A DNA stretch of 64,000 bases from Methylocella tundrae (GTDB lineage Bacteria > Pseudomonadota > Alphaproteobacteria > Rhizobiales > Beijerinckiaceae): NCBI RefSeq assembly GCF_038024855.1, contig NZ_CP139089.1, positions 2,948,501 to 3,012,500 of the forward strand. The letters run 5' to 3'. Position numbers and translations under genes: made by a program. Shown one piece after another: positions 55,721-64,000 of this stretch; within the stretch, counting starts at the first letter, position 1, and every line of letters starts with the position of its first letter. Under the pieces are notes generated by a model, which worked only from the letters and a program-made list of their open reading frames with translations, did not search any database and had not been told where the DNA came from.

Positions 55721-57805
55721 CTACTCGGCTGCGATCATCGGCTCGCCTGTGTCGTCATTCTGGGCGGCCGGCTCGTCCTCGTCCTCCGGCAGTTTTTCGC
55801 TGGACTGCTCTGGAGTTTCCTCGGTCGCAGATTCCGGCGCCTGCTCGTCGCCAGTGGCTCGGTCCGGCGTGCGAAGCGGCTCGGGCAGCCAGCCGGTATC
55901 GGCCAGGAGCGTTTCCGCCTCGGCTGCCATGTCGCCCTTCTTCAGGTGCTCGATCCGATCGGCAGCCCGCTGGTCTTTCGCCTGAGCCACGGCCTGCAGG
56001 ATGCGGGCCTTCGTCACCCGGCCGAGGAAGTTGTCCACAGTGGGCTTCCACCCGGCAGCCGCCATGTCGAGGTCGACCGCCTGCGCGATCTTATCGGCAT
56101 GGGCGAACGCCCGCGGACGCCGGTTCCAGGGCTCGTACACCACATTGACCGAGAGGCTGACGATGTGAGCGAAGAGGCCAGCCTGGCTATCGCCGTCCCA
56201 TTCCTGCAGCGCGTCCCAGACATCGGCCGACTCCTTCGGTAGCGCCTTCGCCCAGCTTTCATGCCGTGCGCGGATCGCCTCGGCCGAGGCGCTGTCGTTC
56301 AGTCCCGGCGCCTGCGCGCCGAAGCTGACGCTCTTCAAGTCGAGTTCGAGGCAGCTATCCGAGCCGTAGTGGTAGAAGGTCTTCAGCGTGAGGACATGCA
56401 ACGCCGCGATGAAGGCGACGTCCGGCCGCTCGCCGAGCGCGTGACGCAGGCCAAGCGTCCGGTGCGAGGTCAGCTCGGTCATCAGCCGGTCGGAGATGGG
56501 CGAAAGGCCCTCATCCTCCTCCCCCTCGGGCTCGGCCGCCACGGCGGGGTTGGCGCCTTCGTAGCTAGCGGCCATAGCGCGCTCGTCCTCACCGTCCGCG
56601 GACGGCTCGGGCTCCGGCTCGACCGGCAACTCGTCCTCGGGCCGGACGTACCCGCGCTCAACACGAAGCTGGCCGTCCGGGCCGATGCTGACGAAGGCGC
56701 CGGCACGGGCGATGTCGATCGGTTCGAACACGACAGGCCGGTTCTCGAAGCCCTCCAGCGCCGTTTCCAGCTCCGACAGGCGCTCATCCACCTCATCCGG
56801 CAGTTCGTCGGCGTCTTGGTATTCCTCGGACAGCCGGTCGAACTCGGCCTGGAGCGCGTCCCGGGTTGCTTCTTCCTCGGCCGTCAGCGCGACGGTCTCG
56901 CCACGAAGCTGGCGCAGACCGAAGGCATGGCCGTAAGCGAAATCGGGCGCAACTTCGATCCACTTCCAGCCTTCGGCGGAGACCGCATCCGATTCCGTCT
57001 TCAGCTTGTCGGCCACCATCTGGTCGACGAGCGGGACATCCTGCAGCCAACCGCCATCGTCGCCCTGGAACAGGTCGCGCAGGACCGTGCCGCCGGCCGC
57101 TACATAGGCGTCGAGGCCGATGAACTGCGCCCGCTTGTCGGAAGCGCGGACCGCGCCCTCGGTCAGCATGCGACGAACGGTGTAGGGCTGCTTGTCGTGG
57201 GAGGCCTTCAGGCGCTCGAACACCTGTTCCTGACGCTCGTGGTCGCCGGAGACGGTGAAGGCCATGAGCTGGTCGAGCGTCATGCCGTCCTCGGCATAGA
57301 CGTCGTGCAGCGTCGGCGACACCGACGCCAGCTTCAGGCGCTGCTTCACCACGTTGACCGAGACGAAGAAGGCGGCAGCGATCTCCTCCTCGGACTGGCC
57401 CCTCTCGCGCAATGCCAGGAACGCCCTGAACTGGTCGAGAGGGTGCAATGGCGCGCGCTGGACGTTCTCGGCGAGCGAGTCCTCCTCAGCGATGCCGCTG
57501 TCGCGCACTACGCAGGGCACCGGCGCGGTCTTGGCGAGGCGTTTCTGCTTCACGAGCAGTTCCAGCGCCCGGTAGCGCCGACCACCGGCCGGGATCTCGA
57601 ACATGCCAGTCTCGGCGCCGGCCTGGTCGGTTACGGGCCGGACGCTGAGGCCCTGCAACAGGCCGCGGCGGGCGATGTCCTCGGCCAGCTCCTCCACCGA
57701 GACGCCGGCCTTCACGCGCCGGACATTCGACTGGCTGAGCAAGAGCTTGTTGAAGGGGATGTCGCGCGAGGGCGAGAGGGTGATCTTCTGAACGGTAGTC
57801 GCCAT
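55721..57805 (-). CDS. ParB/RepB-like nuclease-domain protein
   Basis: 694 residues. N-terminal ParB/Sulfiredoxin-like domain (residues ~10-110: FNKLLLSQSNVRRVKAGVSV, EIPAGGRRYRALELLVKQKR, DSLAENVQRAPLHPLDQFRA) and a helix-turn-helix (FFVSVNVVKQRLKLASVSPT). Long acidic C-terminal part with EEDEGLSPISDRLMTELTSH. Large ParB-like proteins of this sort are ICE backbone genes; their role (partition, nicking or transcription control) is unknown. ATG 57805 gives the usual MATTVQKITL start. Confidence 0.88.
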   Translation of the reverse strand: MATTVQKITLSPSRDIPFNKLLLSQSNVRRVKAGVSVEELAEDIARRGLLQGLSVRPVTDQAGAETGMFEIPAGGRRYRALELLVKQKRLAKTAPVPCVVRDSGIAEEDSLAENVQRAPLHPLDQFRAFLALRERGQSEEEIAAAFFVSVNVVKQRLKLASVSPTLHDVYAEDGMTLDQLMAFTVSGDHERQEQVFERLKASHDKQPYTVRRMLTEGAVRASDKRAQFIGLDAYVAAGGTVLRDLFQGDDGGWLQDVPLVDQMVADKLKTESDAVSAEGWKWIEVAPDFAYGHAFGLRQLRGETVALTAEEEATRDALQAEFDRLSEEYQDADELPDEVDERLSELETALEGFENRPVVFEPIDIARAGAFVSIGPDGQLRVERGYVRPEDELPVEPEPEPSADGEDERAMAASYEGANPAVAAEPEGEEDEGLSPISDRLMTELTSHRTLGLRHALGERPDVAFIAALHVLTLKTFYHYGSDSCLELDLKSVSFGAQAPGLNDSASAEAIRARHESWAKALPKESADVWDALQEWDGDSQAGLFAHIVSLSVNVVYEPWNRRPRAFAHADKIAQAVDLDMAAAGWKPTVDNFLGRVTKARILQAVAQAKDQRAADRIEHLKKGDMAAEAETLLADTGWLPEPLRTPDRATGDEQAPESATEETPEQSSEKLPEDEDEPAAQNDDTGEPMIAAE

Positions 57806-58039
57806 GGGATGATACTCCGCGACGAGCGCCGGGAGCCTCTCTCTCGGCATCAACTCGTCACGAAGCGCAGCGCCGCCCTCTTCCTCTGAGAGCGGCGCCG
57901 CAGAACCGACGATCGAGAAAGGAGGAAGCGGTTAGTCGCTTCCAATCAGCGGGCCTTTGACTCCCAATTAGCCGGCGTCAGGCTGGCCCCGCGTCGAAAG
58001 CCGGAAACGCGCCGTTCCGCATATCCGGCTTTCCGGGAA

Positions 58040-59236
58040 TCAGGCTGCACGGTCGAGCAGCTTCTTCGCGCGTACCTCCAGATCGAGCCGGGCATCCTGG
58101 TGGGTCTTGTCGCGCGCGACGGCGGTGATGCCCTGGACGAAGTCGAAGACGCTCTCGGGTTTGCGCCCTTCCTCGGCAAGGACGGTCTCGATGATCTTCG
58201 CCGTCTCGGTCTTCGAGAAGCCGCGCTTGCGCAGGAACTCGCTGCGATCGTCGTCGGTACGGGCCACGATCTTCTCCCGCGCCGCCTTAATGCCGTTCAC
58301 GAAGGGCATTGGCGAAGAGTTGGCGAAGCGGGTCAACGCCGGCGCAGCCTCATACGCGAACCTCGAGGCGGCGTATTTCGAGTGACGGATGGTAATCTCC
58401 TCGAAATCCTCGACACCCCAGAGATTGCGGTTCTGGCAAACGGCGCGGAGATAGAAGCTCGCCATGCCGAGCGTTTTCGCCCCCACCTCGGAATTCCAGC
58501 AGTAGAAGCCACGGAAGTAGAGGTCGGGCGAGCCGTCGGGCAGCCGCCCGGCCTCGATCGGGTTGAGGTCGTCTACCAGGAAGAGGAAGACATCGCGATC
58601 GGAGGCGTAGAGCGTCGTCGTATCCTGCGTGATGTCGACGCGCGGGTTGTAGGCCCCGGTCGACCAGTCGAGCACGCCCGGCACCTTCCAGCGCGTATCG
58701 CCCGTTCCGTTGCCGGCAATGCGCTGCACGGCCGCCGCCAGCTCGTGATCGAAGATGCGCCCATAGTCGGGCCCTGTGACGGCGCGCAGCTCGACGCGTC
58801 CGTCTTCGATCTCAAGCGTCTTCACCTGGTCGGCGCGGTGTGAGGTCAGGCCGTATTGCAGGTTGATGCCGGCGAGTGGCGCGGGAAGCTGGCGCAGATA
58901 GGCCGCCGGAGCTCCCACCAGGCCGGCGAGCTGACCAAAGCTCCAATGGGTTGGCGCGATTGGCGCATCCGAGCCGGGCAGCAGCAGCGCCAGGCGTTCT
59001 GCATCGTCGCGGCTCGCCTCCACGCGGATCGCCGCACTCTCGACGGTTCGGGTGCGGCTACGCTCGGTCCGACCATGCACGGCGGCATAGAGGTCGGACA
59101 GGGAAAGGTAGCGCTCGTCAGCGGGCCTCGAAAACCATTCGGAGGACACGCGGCCGATCCGCTCGCCGCGGCTTACATCTACCTTGTAGCCGCCAGCGCG
59201 GTCGCGAGCGGCGTCCAGAATCTCCATATGGGTCAT
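58040..59236 (-). CDS. DUF932 protein
   Basis: 398 residues of the DUF932 phage/plasmid family: RYLSLSDLYAAVHGRTERSR, HWSFGQLAGLVGAPAAYLRQ, YASDRDVFLFLVDDLNPIEA and FYCWNSEVGAKTLGMASFYL. It is related to phage-encoded lambda-like anti-restriction or DNA-binding proteins; function unproved. A 234-bp spacer precedes the ParB-like gene on the same strand. Backbone gene. Confidence 0.9.
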   Translation of the reverse strand: MTHMEILDAARDRAGGYKVDVSRGERIGRVSSEWFSRPADERYLSLSDLYAAVHGRTERSRTRTVESAAIRVEASRDDAERLALLLPGSDAPIAPTHWSFGQLAGLVGAPAAYLRQLPAPLAGINLQYGLTSHRADQVKTLEIEDGRVELRAVTGPDYGRIFDHELAAAVQRIAGNGTGDTRWKVPGVLDWSTGAYNPRVDITQDTTTLYASDRDVFLFLVDDLNPIEAGRLPDGSPDLYFRGFYCWNSEVGAKTLGMASFYLRAVCQNRNLWGVEDFEEITIRHSKYAASRFAYEAAPALTRFANSSPMPFVNGIKAAREKIVARTDDDRSEFLRKRGFSKTETAKIIETVLAEEGRKPESVFDFVQGITAVARDKTHQDARLDLEVRAKKLLDRAA

Positions 59237-59445: not shown

Positions 59446-59517
59446 TGTCCGAAGTTTGTATACATATTTCAGACCGCGGTTGCCTCCTGTCCGAAAAAGA
59501 GCTACAAGTTTCGGACA
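59446..59517. promoter_or_regulatory. Repeated TGTCCGAA motif upstream of the AbiEi-like gene
   Basis: TGTCCGAAGTTTGTA at 59446-59460; TGTCCGAA at 59488-59495; and TACAAGTTTCGGACA at 59503-59517, which is the first motif in reverse orientation (13 of 15 bases). The last two make an inverted repeat whose end is the first base of the antitoxin ATG. AbiEi-type antitoxins bind inverted repeats at their own promoter, so this is the likely operator of the following operon. Confidence 0.7.
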
Positions 59518-60359
59518 TGAACGGCGACTCACCCGACCTGAAGACAGCTATGCTCAAGCGCATCCGTGCGGACGCGCCGCGGAAGGTCTGGACGCCCAGC
59601 GATTTCGTCGATCTCGCCTCGCGGGACGCCGTCGACAAGGCGTTGCAGCGGTTGGCAAAGGCCGAAACCCTTAGGCGGATCGACCGCGGGCTCTACGATC
59701 AACCTAGCTTCAACAAACTCACCCAAAAACCCAATCCGCCTGACCCGCGCTCGGTCATCGACGCCGTTGCGCGACGCGACCAAACCCGGATGCTGGTTGA
59801 TGGCATGACCGCAGCGAACGATCTGGGTCTGACCGACGCGGTTCCGGCCAAAATCGTGGTGCACACCGACGCACGCCGTCGCGCGATCAAGCTCGGCAAC
59901 GTGACGATCACCTTCCGTCCGACCGCGCCCAGCAAGCTGTTCTGGGCCGGGCGACCGGCGATGCGCGTCGTCCAAGCGCTTCACTGGCTCCGAGATCTCC
60001 TGGTTCGTGAAGGGGAGAGCGATCAGGTCAGGCGTAAGCTAGGCAAGCTTTTCGAAGATCCGATAGCCGGGCCGCCCCTCAAAGCCGACCTCACCGCCGG
60101 CATGACGGCGCTTCCGACATGGATGTGGGCGTTTCTCAAGCCGCTCATCGAACGCGATGCCGACGATCATCGTCGGTACATCCGCGATGACCGTGATGCT
60201 GATGCCGCTGATGCTAACGATCATGATCGTCATCAAAGAGGGAGGCAGGGGGATGATGATCAGCATCACACTGCCGGCGTTCGCCCGAGGCGCAAACCGG
60301 TCTCCACCCAGACGACACAAACCGCCAAGCGCGGTGCAACCCGGGCGGCGAAAACATGA
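59517..60359 (+). CDS. AbiEi-like antitoxin (DUF6088)
   Basis: 280 residues. N-terminal winged helix (VWTPSDFVDLASRDAVDKAL, then RRIDRGLYDQPSFNKLTQ) and the DUF6088 body (MLVDGMTAANDLGLTDAVPA, VVHTDARRRAIKLGNVTITF). Represses the operon and neutralises the partner nucleotidyltransferase in AbiE systems. The last ~60 residues are an Asp/His/Arg-rich low-complexity tail not seen in the usual family. ATG 59517 abuts the operator-like repeat. Overlaps the toxin gene by ATGA. Confidence 0.88.
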   Translation: MNGDSPDLKTAMLKRIRADAPRKVWTPSDFVDLASRDAVDKALQRLAKAETLRRIDRGLYDQPSFNKLTQKPNPPDPRSVIDAVARRDQTRMLVDGMTAANDLGLTDAVPAKIVVHTDARRRAIKLGNVTITFRPTAPSKLFWAGRPAMRVVQALHWLRDLLVREGESDQVRRKLGKLFEDPIAGPPLKADLTAGMTALPTWMWAFLKPLIERDADDHRRYIRDDRDADAADANDHDRHQRGRQGDDDQHHTAGVRPRRKPVSTQTTQTAKRGATRAAKT

Positions 60360-61435
60360 ATCCGGCGTTCGATGAGGTTCTCGCGGCCGGGCCGGGCGCG
60401 ATATTGGGCGCCTTCGATACGACGGCGCTGCGCCTCGGCACGGCATCCCAGAACGTCGAGAAAGACTTCTGGGTCTGCTGGACGCTGGATGCGCTGTTCC
60501 ATGGCCTGAAAGAAGGCGGACCGCGCCTCCTCTTCAAGGGCGGTACCTCCCTATCCAAGGGGTTCGGTCTGATCAACCGCTTCTCCGAAGACATCGATGT
60601 CACGGTTTTTCGAGACGACATTGGCGAGCCGGCGACCATCGAGGAGCTCGACGCGCTGAGCGGCAAGAAGCGCCGGGCGCGCCTCGATGCGATCAAGGAT
60701 GCCTGCCAAGTCTACATCAACGGCCCGCTGCGGGCTGAGTTGACGCAGATCCTGCAGGACCGGCTCCAGGCCGCCGGCCTCGATGCCAGCGCGGCCCGCG
60801 TGGAAGCCGACGACGCTGATCCCGACGGGCAGACGCTGCTGATCTGGTATCCCGCGGCGACGCCGCGATCGGACTATGTGCGGGCGGCGATCAAGATCGA
60901 GTCGGGCGCGAAATCCGCGCTCGATCCGAACAGCGAAGTGCCGATCAAACCCTATGTCGATGACGATCTGCCGGCACTCGACCTGACCGTGCCGGCCGTC
61001 CGCACGGTCGATCCAGCACGGACCTTCTGGGACAAGGTCGTCATCCTCCACGGGCTGCGGCGCTGGTTCGACAAGCGCGGCGAGCTGCGCGGCGGCGGCC
61101 AACGCGTGTCCCGTCACTATTATGATCTGCACCAGCTCACCGCGGCCCCCGTCGGCGCCGCCGCTATCGCTGATCCGGTGCTCGGCGCAGATTGCGTCGC
61201 GCACGCCCGGATGTTCTTCAATCGACCGGACTTCGATCTCGCGAGCGCTGCACCCGGTTCATTCGCACTCGCCCCGCATGACGCGATGATCGAGCAACTG
61301 CGCGTCGACTACAGGGCCATGCAGGGCATGATTTTCGGCGATCCACCGGATTTCGAGGCGGTGCTCGACAGCATCGGCTCGCTCGAGACGCGTCTGAACG
61401 AGAAGGGCGATACGGGAAGCGGGGCCGCGCGATGA
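60356..61435 (+). CDS. AbiEii-like nucleotidyltransferase toxin
   Basis: 359 residues of the AbiEii/MenA-type nucleotidyltransferase family: LLFKGGTSLSKGFGLINRFS with the GTS motif at 63-65, followed by SEDIDV with the two catalytic acids (Asp79, Asp81), and TFWDKVVILHGLRRW further on. Members block growth by modifying tRNA 3' ends or similar targets; the target here is unknown. Coupled to the antitoxin upstream and, unusually, to three further genes downstream. Confidence 0.9.
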   Translation: MNPAFDEVLAAGPGAILGAFDTTALRLGTASQNVEKDFWVCWTLDALFHGLKEGGPRLLFKGGTSLSKGFGLINRFSEDIDVTVFRDDIGEPATIEELDALSGKKRRARLDAIKDACQVYINGPLRAELTQILQDRLQAAGLDASAARVEADDADPDGQTLLIWYPAATPRSDYVRAAIKIESGAKSALDPNSEVPIKPYVDDDLPALDLTVPAVRTVDPARTFWDKVVILHGLRRWFDKRGELRGGGQRVSRHYYDLHQLTAAPVGAAAIADPVLGADCVAHARMFFNRPDFDLASAAPGSFALAPHDAMIEQLRVDYRAMQGMIFGDPPDFEAVLDSIGSLETRLNEKGDTGSGAAR

Positions 61436-62289
61436 ACCAGTTGGAGGGAGCTGTCGACACCGGGCAAGAGGCAGACGCGCGCCGCGCGGGTGAAGCGATC
61501 GTAACCCCGCTGCGCAAACGCCGCCTCAGCGGTGAACTCTACGAGCGCGACCCGAAGATAGAAGCGCTCATCGCCGAATTGGCGGCCCTGCCGCGTGACG
61601 GGTTGATCGCCAGGGCGGAAATCACGAAGCGCTCGGACCCGGGCTACGTTCCCAGCGAATGTCTCGTGTACTTCATTCGCGCGAGCCGTCGCGACAACAA
61701 CGAGGTGTGGTTCGAGCGCCTCTATCGGATCTTGACCGAACGGGTGCTGCGCAGTTTGCCCAGGGCGGAAAGCTCCGATGGCAAGACGGAATCGCTGACG
61801 CGCGGGATCGTGCGCGACAAGGTGTTCGGCCGGTTCGTCGAGCTCCTTTCGGCGGACCGCGCCGCCTATGACGAAAAGGTTGACTACTTCGAGGTGCGCT
61901 TCGACGGCGCGCTAGCGAGCCTGCGGCGCGATGCGCAGGAAAAGGCCTGGCGTGACGAAAATCGTTCCCAGCCCCTCGAATATGACGAGGAGAGTGGAGA
62001 GCTGGCACCGGAGGTCGAGGCGGCCGCAGGGACCCATGATCCCTTCGCCGCGTCGGATTTCGACGATCCGGCTTACCGGTCGCGCCTGGATGCAGCGATT
62101 GAGGCACTACCGAAGGAACAAAGCAGGATCATTCACATGCTGAGACAAGGCCTCCCCATCGACTCCAAGGAGCCGGACGTCATGACCATCGCCAAGGCCT
62201 TGGGTCGCTCCGAAAAGACCGTCCGAACCTACCGCGACAAGGCCTTCGCCGCCCTGCGAGCCGCTATGGCCGACGGAGACGAGCGGTGA
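61432..62289 (+). CDS. Sigma-70-region-4-like protein of unknown role
   Basis: 285 residues. The C-terminal part (IEALPKEQSRIIHMLRQGLP, then IAKALGRSEKTVRTYRDKAF) resembles sigma-70 region 4, the -35-binding helix-turn-helix. The N-terminal ~200 residues (IRASRRDNNEVWFERLYRIL, FGRFVELLSADRAAYDEKVD) resemble no sigma region 2 that I can recognise. It may be a regulator or a DNA-binding adaptor. Overlaps both neighbours by 4 bp, so it is an obligate member of this operon. Confidence 0.65.
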   Translation: MNQLEGAVDTGQEADARRAGEAIVTPLRKRRLSGELYERDPKIEALIAELAALPRDGLIARAEITKRSDPGYVPSECLVYFIRASRRDNNEVWFERLYRILTERVLRSLPRAESSDGKTESLTRGIVRDKVFGRFVELLSADRAAYDEKVDYFEVRFDGALASLRRDAQEKAWRDENRSQPLEYDEESGELAPEVEAAAGTHDPFAASDFDDPAYRSRLDAAIEALPKEQSRIIHMLRQGLPIDSKEPDVMTIAKALGRSEKTVRTYRDKAFAALRAAMADGDER

Positions 62290-62861
62290 GCCCCGCCGGC
62301 GAACGCCCATCCCGCGAGGCCGTGCTCGACGCGTTCGCAGTCGAGAGCGAGCCCGGCCCGTCGACCTTGGAGCGCTATCTGCGGCAATACCCGGAATATG
62401 CCGGGGAGCTCATCGACCTCTCGCGCGAACTCAGCCGCGAGGCTTATGAAGATGCCGCACCCCTCTCTGCTGCCGATCGGGCACTGATCGACGCCGCCTG
62501 GTCGCAACACGCGAAGGCTATGCCGGCGGCAGCAGCCGACCCTTTCGCGGCGCTGACGGTCGATGACTGGCGCGCCGTCGCCCAGCGTCTGGACGTGCCC
62601 CGGCAGGTCGTGACCGCGCTGCGCGAACGGCGGGTCTCTCTCGTCAGTATCCCGCGACGCTTCCTGGCGATGTTGGCGGAGGCGATGCGCAGCTCTGTCG
62701 CGCAGTTGGAGTCGTCCTGGGGCCCGGCCCAGTTGGTCGCGCGCAGTTATAAGGCCGACGCCAAGCCGGTGGCCGGCGAGCAGGTCACCCTCGAGCAAGT
62801 GCTGATCGATGCCGGCGTCCCGGCGGAGAAACGCGCCCGGCTGTTGGCGGAGGCGGACTGA
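62286..62861 (+). CDS. Unknown protein of the AbiE-UvrD operon
   Basis: 191 residues, GTG start overlapping the preceding stop (GTGA). ERYLRQYPEYAGELIDLSRE resembles a sequence found at the start of some kinase-associated or sigma-regulatory proteins, and WRAVAQRLDVPRQVVTALRE is helix-turn-helix-like. I recognise no family. One base separates it from the helicase fusion gene. Possibly a partner or anti-sigma-like factor for the sigma-like protein. Confidence 0.7.
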   Translation: MSPAGERPSREAVLDAFAVESEPGPSTLERYLRQYPEYAGELIDLSRELSREAYEDAAPLSAADRALIDAAWSQHAKAMPAAAADPFAALTVDDWRAVAQRLDVPRQVVTALRERRVSLVSIPRRFLAMLAEAMRSSVAQLESSWGPAQLVARSYKADAKPVAGEQVTLEQVLIDAGVPAEKRARLLAEAD

Positions 62862-62862
62862 C

Positions 62863-64000
62863 ATGGACAGCGTGGAGCTCGCCAGGCAAGTCGCCGCCGA
62901 GCTTCACGCTCGCCTCGTCGCATCCGGCGCCGATCCCTGGTCGCCCTATGATTTCGCTGTCGCCGAGGCCAAGCGGCGGGGGATTGACGTCGAACCGACC
63001 GCCGCCGGCGCAGCCGTCCTCAACGGCGGCCGCGCGACCTTTGTCGCCGCCGACGATCTGATCCTCCACGAGAACATCGGGTCTCGGTTTGAGCAAGCCT
63101 TCCTCGTGGCGCACGAGATCGGCCATGTCGAGCTTGGCGACGATCCTGATGGCGAACCGGCGCCGACGATTGATCCGGCCCGCGCGGCTGAGCCGTCGCC
63201 GGTAGGGATCGATCGGGTGATCGACTATGGGCGCAGGCAGCGTCGCGAGGTCCAGATGGATCTTTTCGCGCGCGAACTGCTGCTGCCGCGCAACGTGGTG
63301 CGGGCGCTTCATGTCGATGGAGCCTTTTCCGCTTCTGAGATCGCTGCGAAACTCGGCGCGCCGTTCGAGGTCGTGGCGCAGCAGTTGTTCGATGCCTTGC
63401 TGTTGCCGCCGGTGCCGCCTACGCTGGCGGCGACGCCCGTCGAACGGCCGCTCAATCCGCTGCAAGCGGCGGCGGCGGTGCATCGCGGCGAAGCCTATCT
63501 GCTCGAAGCGGGTCCTGGCACCGGCAAGACCCAGACACTGATCGCGCGTGTCGAAGGCCTTCTGGAAGAGGGCATCGATCCCAGGCGCATCTTGCTCCTG
63601 ACCTTCTCGAACAAGGCGGCGGGCGAGATGGCCGAAAGGATCGCGCGCAAGCGGCCAGGGGCGGCGGCCGCGATGTGGGTCGGCACGTTCCATGCCTTCG
63701 GCCTCGATATCATCCGTCGCTTCCATGCGGAGCTCGGCTTGCCGAAGGACCCGCGGATGATGGATCGAACTGAGGCGGTCGAGCTCCTCGAGGAGGAGTT
63801 CCCGCGGCTGAGGCTCGCGCATTACCGCAACCTCTATGATCCCACCCAGATCATCGCTGACATGCTGGCCGCCGTCTCTCGGGCGAAGGACGAGGTGGTC
63901 GACGCCGAAACCTACGCCGCGCTCGCCGACGCGAAGCTTGCCAAGGCGGAGGACTCTGCGGCGCGCGAGGCTGCCGAGCGCGCCGGCGAGGTGGCGCGCG
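62863..64000 (+). CDS. ImmA/IrrE metallopeptidase - UvrD helicase fusion (partial)
   Basis: Open to the window end (379 codons seen). Residues ~60-150 are an ImmA/IrrE-like zinc protease: VAHEIGHVELG with HEIGH at 84-88 and MDLFARELLLPR. From residue ~200 a UvrD/Rep-type helicase begins: PLNPLQAAAAV as Q motif, Walker A GPGTGKT at 217-223, motif Ia LTFSNKAAGEM and motif Ib GTFHAFGLDIIRRF. The rest lies outside the window. The fusion of a stress-protease fold with a DNA helicase is unusual. It is the last visible gene of the five-gene operon. Confidence 0.85.
   Translation, partial: MDSVELARQVAAELHARLVASGADPWSPYDFAVAEAKRRGIDVEPTAAGAAVLNGGRATFVAADDLILHENIGSRFEQAFLVAHEIGHVELGDDPDGEPAPTIDPARAAEPSPVGIDRVIDYGRRQRREVQMDLFARELLLPRNVVRALHVDGAFSASEIAAKLGAPFEVVAQQLFDALLLPPVPPTLAATPVERPLNPLQAAAAVHRGEAYLLEAGPGTGKTQTLIARVEGLLEEGIDPRRILLLTFSNKAAGEMAERIARKRPGAAAAMWVGTFHAFGLDIIRRFHAELGLPKDPRMMDRTEAVELLEEEFPRLRLAHYRNLYDPTQIIADMLAAVSRAKDEVVDAETYAALADAKLAKAEDSAAREAAERAGEVAR

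Follow-up and report, generated by a model that had tools for sequence, protein, structure and literature searches.

ImmA-type metallopeptidases have been described both beside bacterial ubiquitin-like genes and as proteases that cut a DNA-binding repressor (the papers concerned are cited throughout from parts of their text). Of the multi-ubiquitin proteins of family PF14452, 70% are associated with ImmA-type (COG2856/DUF955) genes, an arrangement read as toxin-antitoxin (PMC4963859). CapH and CapP, a helix-turn-helix (HTH) repressor and a protease activated by single-stranded DNA (ssDNA), control immune and Bub operons (PMC13373217), and in Deinococcus ssDNA activates PprI to cut DdrO (PMC10904395). 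The ubiquitin-like operons themselves include the Iyer type 6e polyUbl operons (PMC1779556), Bub and Bil, the last being listed as a known anti-phage pathway (PMC13373217).

Here we analyse the right-hand end of a 64,000-nucleotide stretch of the Methylocella tundrae genome (contig NZ_CP139089.1, positions 2,948,501 to 3,012,500; the whole stretch is called the window), where five open reading frames (ORFs) lie in close succession. They comprise a toxin-antitoxin pair, present at some loci and absent from others, and the first half of a conserved mobile operon with a six-gene core: a sigma region-4-like (sigma4-like) protein, a protein called X, a fusion of an ImmA/IrrE protease with a UvrD helicase and a PD-(D/E)XK domain, a triple ubiquitin-like protein (Multi_ubiq), an E1 with DUF6791 and ThiF domains, and a DUF6527 protein. 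We describe the gene content, order, conservation, motif status and co-occurrence of this operon, and propose how its first three genes, the front module, may act.

A six-gene operon with an add-on AbiE pair

The preliminary description had read the five ORFs, from AbiEi to the protease-helicase, as one composite defence system in which the protease-helicase releases or uses the AbiE nucleotidyltransferase. The ORFs are borne out, as are their junctions (overlaps of 4, 4 and 4 bp, then a 1-bp gap before the protease-helicase) and the identities given to AbiEi, AbiEii, peptidase and helicase (Table 1), and the ORF left unnamed, X, is a real gene with 470 homologues, the 120 listed being 78–100% identical over 94–100% of X. 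Both borders drawn for the system were wrong, however. Sequence beyond position 64,000, taken from locus L003 of the same genome, completes the protease-helicase as a protein of 1133 residues with Peptidase_M78, UvrD N- and C-domains and a PD-(D/E)XK domain (PDDEXK_1, 5e-10; all by Pfam), and the operon then continues into the ubiquitin-like genes.

Searching the genome collection with two peptide patterns, both taken from X alone, gave 52 loci, in which neighbours were found by tblastn with the window proteins. A sigma-like match lies upstream of the X match, within 0.6 kb, in all 52; the ImmA domain stands beside X in 52/52, UvrD in 50/52 and PD-(D/E)XK in 48/52. Multi-ubiquitin, E1 and DUF6527 genes are present in 46 of the 52, and all three are found in 46 of the 49 loci that extend 6 kb past X, the match to the fusion gene breaking off in each of the three exceptions (L033, L038 and L045). 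In L033 and L038 the operon copies are broken within the fusion gene though the contigs go on. Spacing is equally regular, with 0–4 bp between X and the fusion in most loci, usually 80–99 bp between the fusion and the multi-ubiquitin gene (outliers 30–74 and 398), and mostly a 4-bp overlap between E1 and DUF6527. With starts chosen by alignment, the multi-ubiquitin gene and the E1 gene share 26 bp, read in different frames, at the end of the former and the beginning of the latter (L003:8569-8594) in 62/62 measurable loci, an overlap that holds down to ∼33% E1 identity.

The operon occurs in Alpha-, Beta- and Gammaproteobacteria, Myxococcus and, on a plasmid, Leptolyngbya. The X family is rare, being found in 3/385 genomes of the class, and the sigma-like gene occurs in 2/198 relatives, the window's own genome being counted in both. 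Near-identical operons in Bradyrhizobium, Sphingomonas, Xanthobacter and other bins (L013–L019 and L022; seven identical fusion proteins, the eighth nearly so) may reflect either recent transfer or, in the metagenome-derived ones, binning artefacts. Neither ImmA nor UvrD gave a tblastn match in the viral-contig DNA examined, the scan of which yielded five partial X matches. Two viral contigs (L142, 8998-9611; L145, 16-860) each have a short sigma4-like ORF that overlaps a second short ORF, which covers no more of X than its N-terminal part, and L145 also has a terminase-like ORF, named by eye; the viral ORFs are possible decoys or regulators.

The AbiE pair does not share this constancy. At least in part, a window-type pair adjoins the sigma gene in 22 of the 52 loci and in 9 of 35 X clusters formed at 95% identity (L047 and L052, which have no called X protein, are omitted from the clusters), and 51 of the 52 loci have at least 2.5 kb upstream of sigma. 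Among the 30 others, L010 retains an AbiEii remnant of the last 24 codons only, with all later genes detectable and no intact fusion frame called; a distantly related AbiE pair (∼32% identity) lies 4.5 kb upstream in L020, L023 and L026. A relative of the caspase-DEAD helicase gene that follows the window operon occupies the AbiE slot in L021, L028 and L039. In a tree of 57 near-full-length fusion proteins, the 19 rows with AbiE, from 17 scan loci, the window and L006, are confined to one clade of 35 rows, and AbiE is missing from all 22 rows beyond it; five of the 22 AbiE-bearing loci (L032, L033, L038, L047 and L052) are not on the tree. By a quick parsimony method, with long branches in the tree, AbiE presence changes state eight times, six of them forced by well-supported branches. 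Among plasmids, AbiEii at least 80% identical occurs in 20 records, 13 of which also have the sigma gene, the other seven not being among the 60 of 77 sigma records listed. Conversely, three of 14 plasmid sigma matches of at least 77% (Cereibacter and two A. pusense) lack an AbiEii match of at least 80%, and in the two of these three loci viewed there is no AbiEii within 9 kb.

The AbiE pair is an add-on in the upstream slot, and a composite AbiE system is rejected on co-occurrence. It fails the test set out with the earlier proposal, for no window-type AbiE pair adjoins the sigma, X and fusion genes in 30 of the 52 loci or in any of the 22 tree rows outside the one clade. What these three genes constantly keep beside them is the set of ubiquitin-like genes past the window end. 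The four-base overlap of AbiEii and sigma in most AbiE-bearing loci, and the shared transcription likely in those loci, would favour control of the nucleotidyltransferase by the protease-helicase; set against the patchy adjacency, the AbiEii remnant in L010 and the caspase-DEAD helicase relative in the same slot, we regard such control as extremely improbable.

The front module across three cassette kinds

The front module precedes three kinds of conjugation cassette, namely multi-ubiquitin operons with a DUF6791-E1, multi-ubiquitin operons with a JAB-E1, and Bil, and would act as a plug-in sensor and regulator for them. In a PF14452 census, two genome draws gave 12/385 and 15/398 genomes, the window's genome being in both, and all 25 other loci were fetched, three of them (L111, L124 and L125) below the Pfam cut-off. 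Seven carry sigma, X and fusion (L112, L115, L125, L127, L129, L131 and L134), and in seven others a stand-alone ImmA-motif gene has a small HTH-like gene next to it (Pfam confirmed ImmA in the two tested and HTH in the one tested). Since these two sets of seven have one or the other arrangement, ImmA-type control recurs; the remaining 11 loci, some on short contigs, have neither by these tests. Where the module precedes a JAB-E1, Pfam identifies Prok-JAB in L112 and in plasmid locus L147, and L127 and L134 show the JAB motif only. In L147 the multi-ubiquitin protein carries a fused Prok-E2 domain with a match to BubB (1.4e-13).

Four loci place the same module before Bil genes. On the Bradyrhizobium japonicum plasmid NZ_CP066352 (L138) it is followed by BilA (1.6e-47), BilB (4.5e-44), BilC (1.3e-60) and BilD (4e-146); in L184 and L186 BilA, C and D follow (PADLOC), with a weak tblastn match to BilB; in L187 BilC and D follow (PADLOC), sigma and X being assigned there from ORFs by eye. 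A BilD search of 249 genomes matched 37, two of them at more than 500 bits, and both of those carry the helicase; of the weaker matches, the three that were viewed (L188–L190) show no module in the DNA examined, L189 and L190 being truncated by contig ends. No description of the front module or of its link to Bil was found in the titles and abstract starts listed by searches of open-licence literature, which cover few subscription papers or preprints.

These relatives bear on what the protease does. The window E1 has DUF6791 and not the JAB domain described for most type 6e operons in the text of PMC1779556, and Pfam finds no peptidase other than the ImmA domain in the six genes, so that ImmA could be the deubiquitinase or maturase of the system in place of JAB, which trims the ubiquitin-like protein or takes it off again, with the helicase bringing conjugates or targets. 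The same ImmA-helicase is nevertheless retained in the JAB-E1 loci and in the BilC-bearing Bil loci, and ImmA is therefore not a simple JAB substitute. Moreover, the triple ubiquitin protein ends in Ser, not Gly, in 61/62 loci, leaving no obvious tail to trim, and the stand-alone ImmA-motif genes of sister operons pair with an HTH gene. We consider a deubiquitinase role unlikely, and ImmA as a replacement deubiquitinase is disfavoured.

The Bil loci also bear on a second alternative, in which AbiE is a plasmid or island maintenance module that incidentally drives transcription of the cassette, the front module regulating DNA repair or stress responses and having no part in immunity. Many of the loci are indeed on plasmids, and for Bub operons a part in stress responses, rather than in immunity, is considered possible (PMC13373217). 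The presence of the module at four loci of a listed anti-phage pathway argues in the other direction, and this alternative appears to us quite improbable.

A proposed protease switch

Conservation within the fusion was assessed in 30 representative near-full-length frames of <90% identity, broken copies being excluded; L110, which is without the module, was dropped from the helicase count and L125 from alignment A2. Besides the protease and Walker A residues in Table 1, E129 and DEYQD are invariant in 30/30. Of the nuclease D-x-K motif, its position placed by eye against the consensus, the Asp is absent in 30/30 and the Lys kept in five (L050, L058, L060, L125 and L131), and C908, C1111, C1114 and C1120 are invariant in 30/30, a pattern found in iron-sulfur members of the PD-(D/E)XK family. 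With the catalytic Asp lost and the four cysteines kept, the domain would grip DNA and not cut it; an active nuclease is rejected on the loss of D-x-K. Searching solved structures by sequence with the C-terminal domain yielded nothing useful. Of the fusions linked to Bil or JAB, the five inspected (L138, L184, L186, L187 and L147) all retain HExxH and Walker A, as well as the last three of the cysteines.

Could the protease-helicase be the effector, or a DNA-processing partner of the GajB kind, modified by the ubiquitin-like genes while X and sigma only regulate? UvrD-type helicases do occur in defence systems, PADLOC giving DRT and GajB matches, and the helicase is conserved in all cassette kinds. 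The attached nuclease, on the other hand, lacks its catalytic Asp throughout, and X and sigma accompany the fusion in all three kinds of cassette, a pattern more in keeping with a set of regulators. An effector role seems to us rather unlikely.

The AlphaFold model of X (predicted local distance difference test score, pLDDT, 77; predicted template modelling score, pTM, 0.48) comprises an N-terminal helical region, HTH-like helices (residues 92–144) and a C-terminal helix pair. Between the last two, residues 148–162, which hold RSYKADAKP, are predicted to be disordered (pLDDT <50); K156 and P161 are invariant in 35/35 rows and the residues between them vary. The linker motif is kept in X before JAB cassettes and in three of the four fusion-bearing Bil loci, and is absent from L185, the sole relative without the protease. 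The absence of the motif there is, as a single case, no more than suggestive. In L185 (6225-8692), on a Cupriavidus plasmid, a reverse-strand gene without a family assignment replaces the protease-helicase. Comparison of X with solved structures gave no informative match. As for the first gene, its likeness to sigma region 4, proposed earlier, holds for the family, with Sigma70_r4_2 found in 25/28 relatives at E ≤ 0.1 (best 3e-5); the window protein (5e-4) lies below the Pfam cut-off. Against solved structures it matches FliA weakly (0.005).

To judge from PprI-DdrO and CapH-CapP, the most likely substrate of ImmA is X, and the DNA signal most likely comes from the fused helicase with its probably non-cutting clamp. 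In the switch we propose, X, with the sigma4-like protein, which could recruit or block RNA polymerase, would keep the promoter off or poised until infection by phage or damage lays bare DNA ends or single-stranded DNA, which the helicase would engage, the PD-(D/E)XK domain acting as a non-cutting clamp. Bound or translocating helicase would then activate the fused protease to cut X in the conserved Lys...Pro linker, releasing the promoter (or the sigma4-like partner) and inducing the ubiquitin-like genes, whose E1 would activate the modifier and attach it to phage or host proteins. We infer DNA sensing, X cleavage, promoter control, conjugation and defence from gene association, motif conservation and the natural loss in L185. 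The earlier idea of a DNA-sensing protease-helicase that cuts a regulator is plausible and better supported than before, with X as the proposed partner in place of the AbiE nucleotidyltransferase. That DNA engagement lets ImmA cut X and so induces the cassette, as in CapH-CapP, has in our judgement an even chance of being right. The broader proposal, of one dedicated protease-helicase switch that turns DNA engagement into proteolysis of a bound HTH regulator, plugged onto at least three cassette kinds (DUF6791-E1, JAB-E1 and Bil) and so coupling a motor on invading DNA to the induction of ubiquitin-like tagging, we place just short of even.

Several observations weigh against this switch. Not every cassette requires the module: it is missing from 18 of the 25 census loci and from the Bil locus L153, and in L185 sigma and X precede Bil genes although no helicase is present. 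L187 has a degenerate linker motif. The HTH character of X is weak, since its match to the Xre HTH partner profile has an hhalign probability of 29 (E 6e-4), Pfam Xre-like-HTH matches 2/35 X members, the window X matches no Pfam family, and the structural model is of moderate quality. The stand-alone HTH and ImmA pairs of sister operons are divergent from the cassette, whereas X and the protease are here co-directional with it. Promoter control, X cleavage and phage defence are reasoned by analogy, and PMC13373217 states that phage protection by Bub operons was not shown.

If the proposal is correct, the module common to multi-ubiquitin operons and Bil would represent a further class of controller, one that links an ATP-driven DNA motor to proteolytic induction, with X and its linker offering a directly testable substrate and cleavage motif. 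The boundaries of the proposed AbiE system are in any case corrected.

Around the operon (Table 1), the operator-like inverted repeat has 12-nt arms (59485-59496 and 59509-59520), 92% complementary and 12 nt apart, that overlap the AbiEi start. The operon is followed by a caspase-DEAD helicase fusion gene and an integrase gene on the other strand. ParB-like and DUF932-like genes, named by eye, adjoin the operon on the minus strand (window 55721-59236); together with the integrase they suggest an integrative element.

Table 1. Features of the locus. Plain coordinates are window positions; those marked L003 convert as window base = L003 position + 58,499.
Feature	Coordinates	Strand	Basis or remark
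Inverted repeat, putative operator at AbiEi start; belongs to the AbiE accessory pair	59485..59520		Repeat search
AbiEi-type antitoxin (DUF6088), optional accessory gene	59517..60359	+	Pfam DUF6088 8e-29; PADLOC AbiEi 5e-103
AbiEii nucleotidyltransferase toxin, optional accessory gene	60356..61435	+	Pfam AbiEii 5e-42; PADLOC 3e-100
Sigma region-4-like DNA-binding protein, first core gene of front module	61432..62289	+	
X, Xre-HTH-like protein with helical N-domain; proposed repressor/antirepressor and protease substrate	62286..62861	+	
X linker RSYKADAKP, predicted disordered; proposed cleavage/recognition site	62742..62768	+	
ImmA/IrrE-UvrD-PD-(D/E)XK fusion, first 379 codons in window	62863..64000	+	Peptidase_M78 7e-15; UvrD 1e-64; closes at L003:7765
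HEIGH zinc-protease motif	63112..63126	+	H, E and H of HExxH invariant 30/30
Walker A GPGTGKT	63511..63531	+	Invariant 30/30
Triple ubiquitin-like protein (Multi_ubiq, PF14452)	L003:7848-8594		Pfam, three stretches, 4.6e-59
E1, DUF6791 and ThiF	L003:8569-9741		Pfam, DUF6791 6.6e-61
DUF6527 protein, zinc-site	L003:9738-10178		Pfam
Caspase domain fused to Hel308-like DEAD helicase, directly after operon	L003:10734-13838		
Integrase	L003:13875-15335		

Comparison with described systems

The window cassette is a relative of the type 6e operons and of Bub. Its triple ubiquitin protein matches solved multi-ubiquitin proteins (3.7e-60) and, weakly, BubA (0.005), and the best solved match of its E1 is BubCD (2e-9 by sequence; 8e-13 by Foldseek with a template modelling score of 0.45, the 50 rows listed being E1-type matches). 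The N-terminal domain of the E1 carries H65-x9-C75, preceded by a helix and four strands and with C75 kept in 28/30 rows, a motif compatible with an E2-like active site.

Tandem ubiquitin-like domains are shared with type 6e operons as described in PMC1779556, where the E1 has either the JAB domain or an unnamed alternative N-terminal domain; we infer that the latter is DUF6791. The signature printed there for a small metal-binding protein, C-x3-C-x(35-38)-H-x2-C, differs from the C...C...C-x2-H of DUF6527 proteins (63/64) in the order of the last pair and in spacing, which is 34 in the window protein. The word 'sigma' does not appear in the parts of PMC1779556 used here, whereas the window operon starts with a sigma4-like gene. 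Bub comprises BubA, BubB and BubCD, to go by Protein Data Bank entry names. The full set is not present in the window operon, which has no E2-type or JAB domain by Pfam and no separate E2, and whose cassette is preceded by the front module; a JAB-type relative with that module does match BubB. In the parts of PMC13373217 used here, the terms 'ImmA' and 'helicase' are absent. Bil shares the front module at four loci, the window cassette itself being multi-ubiquitin and not Bil, and the type IV toxin-antitoxin AbiE is represented by a standard AbiEi and AbiEii pair that is here accessory, not core.

The closest parallels to the proposed switch are proteolytic. PprI (IrrE) is likewise a metallopeptidase that cuts a DNA-binding repressor with ssDNA (PMC10904395). 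It has no helicase fusion, and controls a DNA damage regulon. The ImmA-type protease with intact HEXXH is shared with CapH-CapP; its neighbour X, with a weak HTH match and HTH-like helices in the model, may be the counterpart of the HTH repressor, and sister multi-ubiquitin operons carry small HTH and ImmA-motif gene pairs. The window system differs from CapH-CapP in several ways: its protease is part of a larger protein with a helicase and a degenerate nuclease, its HTH-like X is divergent, a sigma4-like gene is added, and the whole is co-directional with the cassette.

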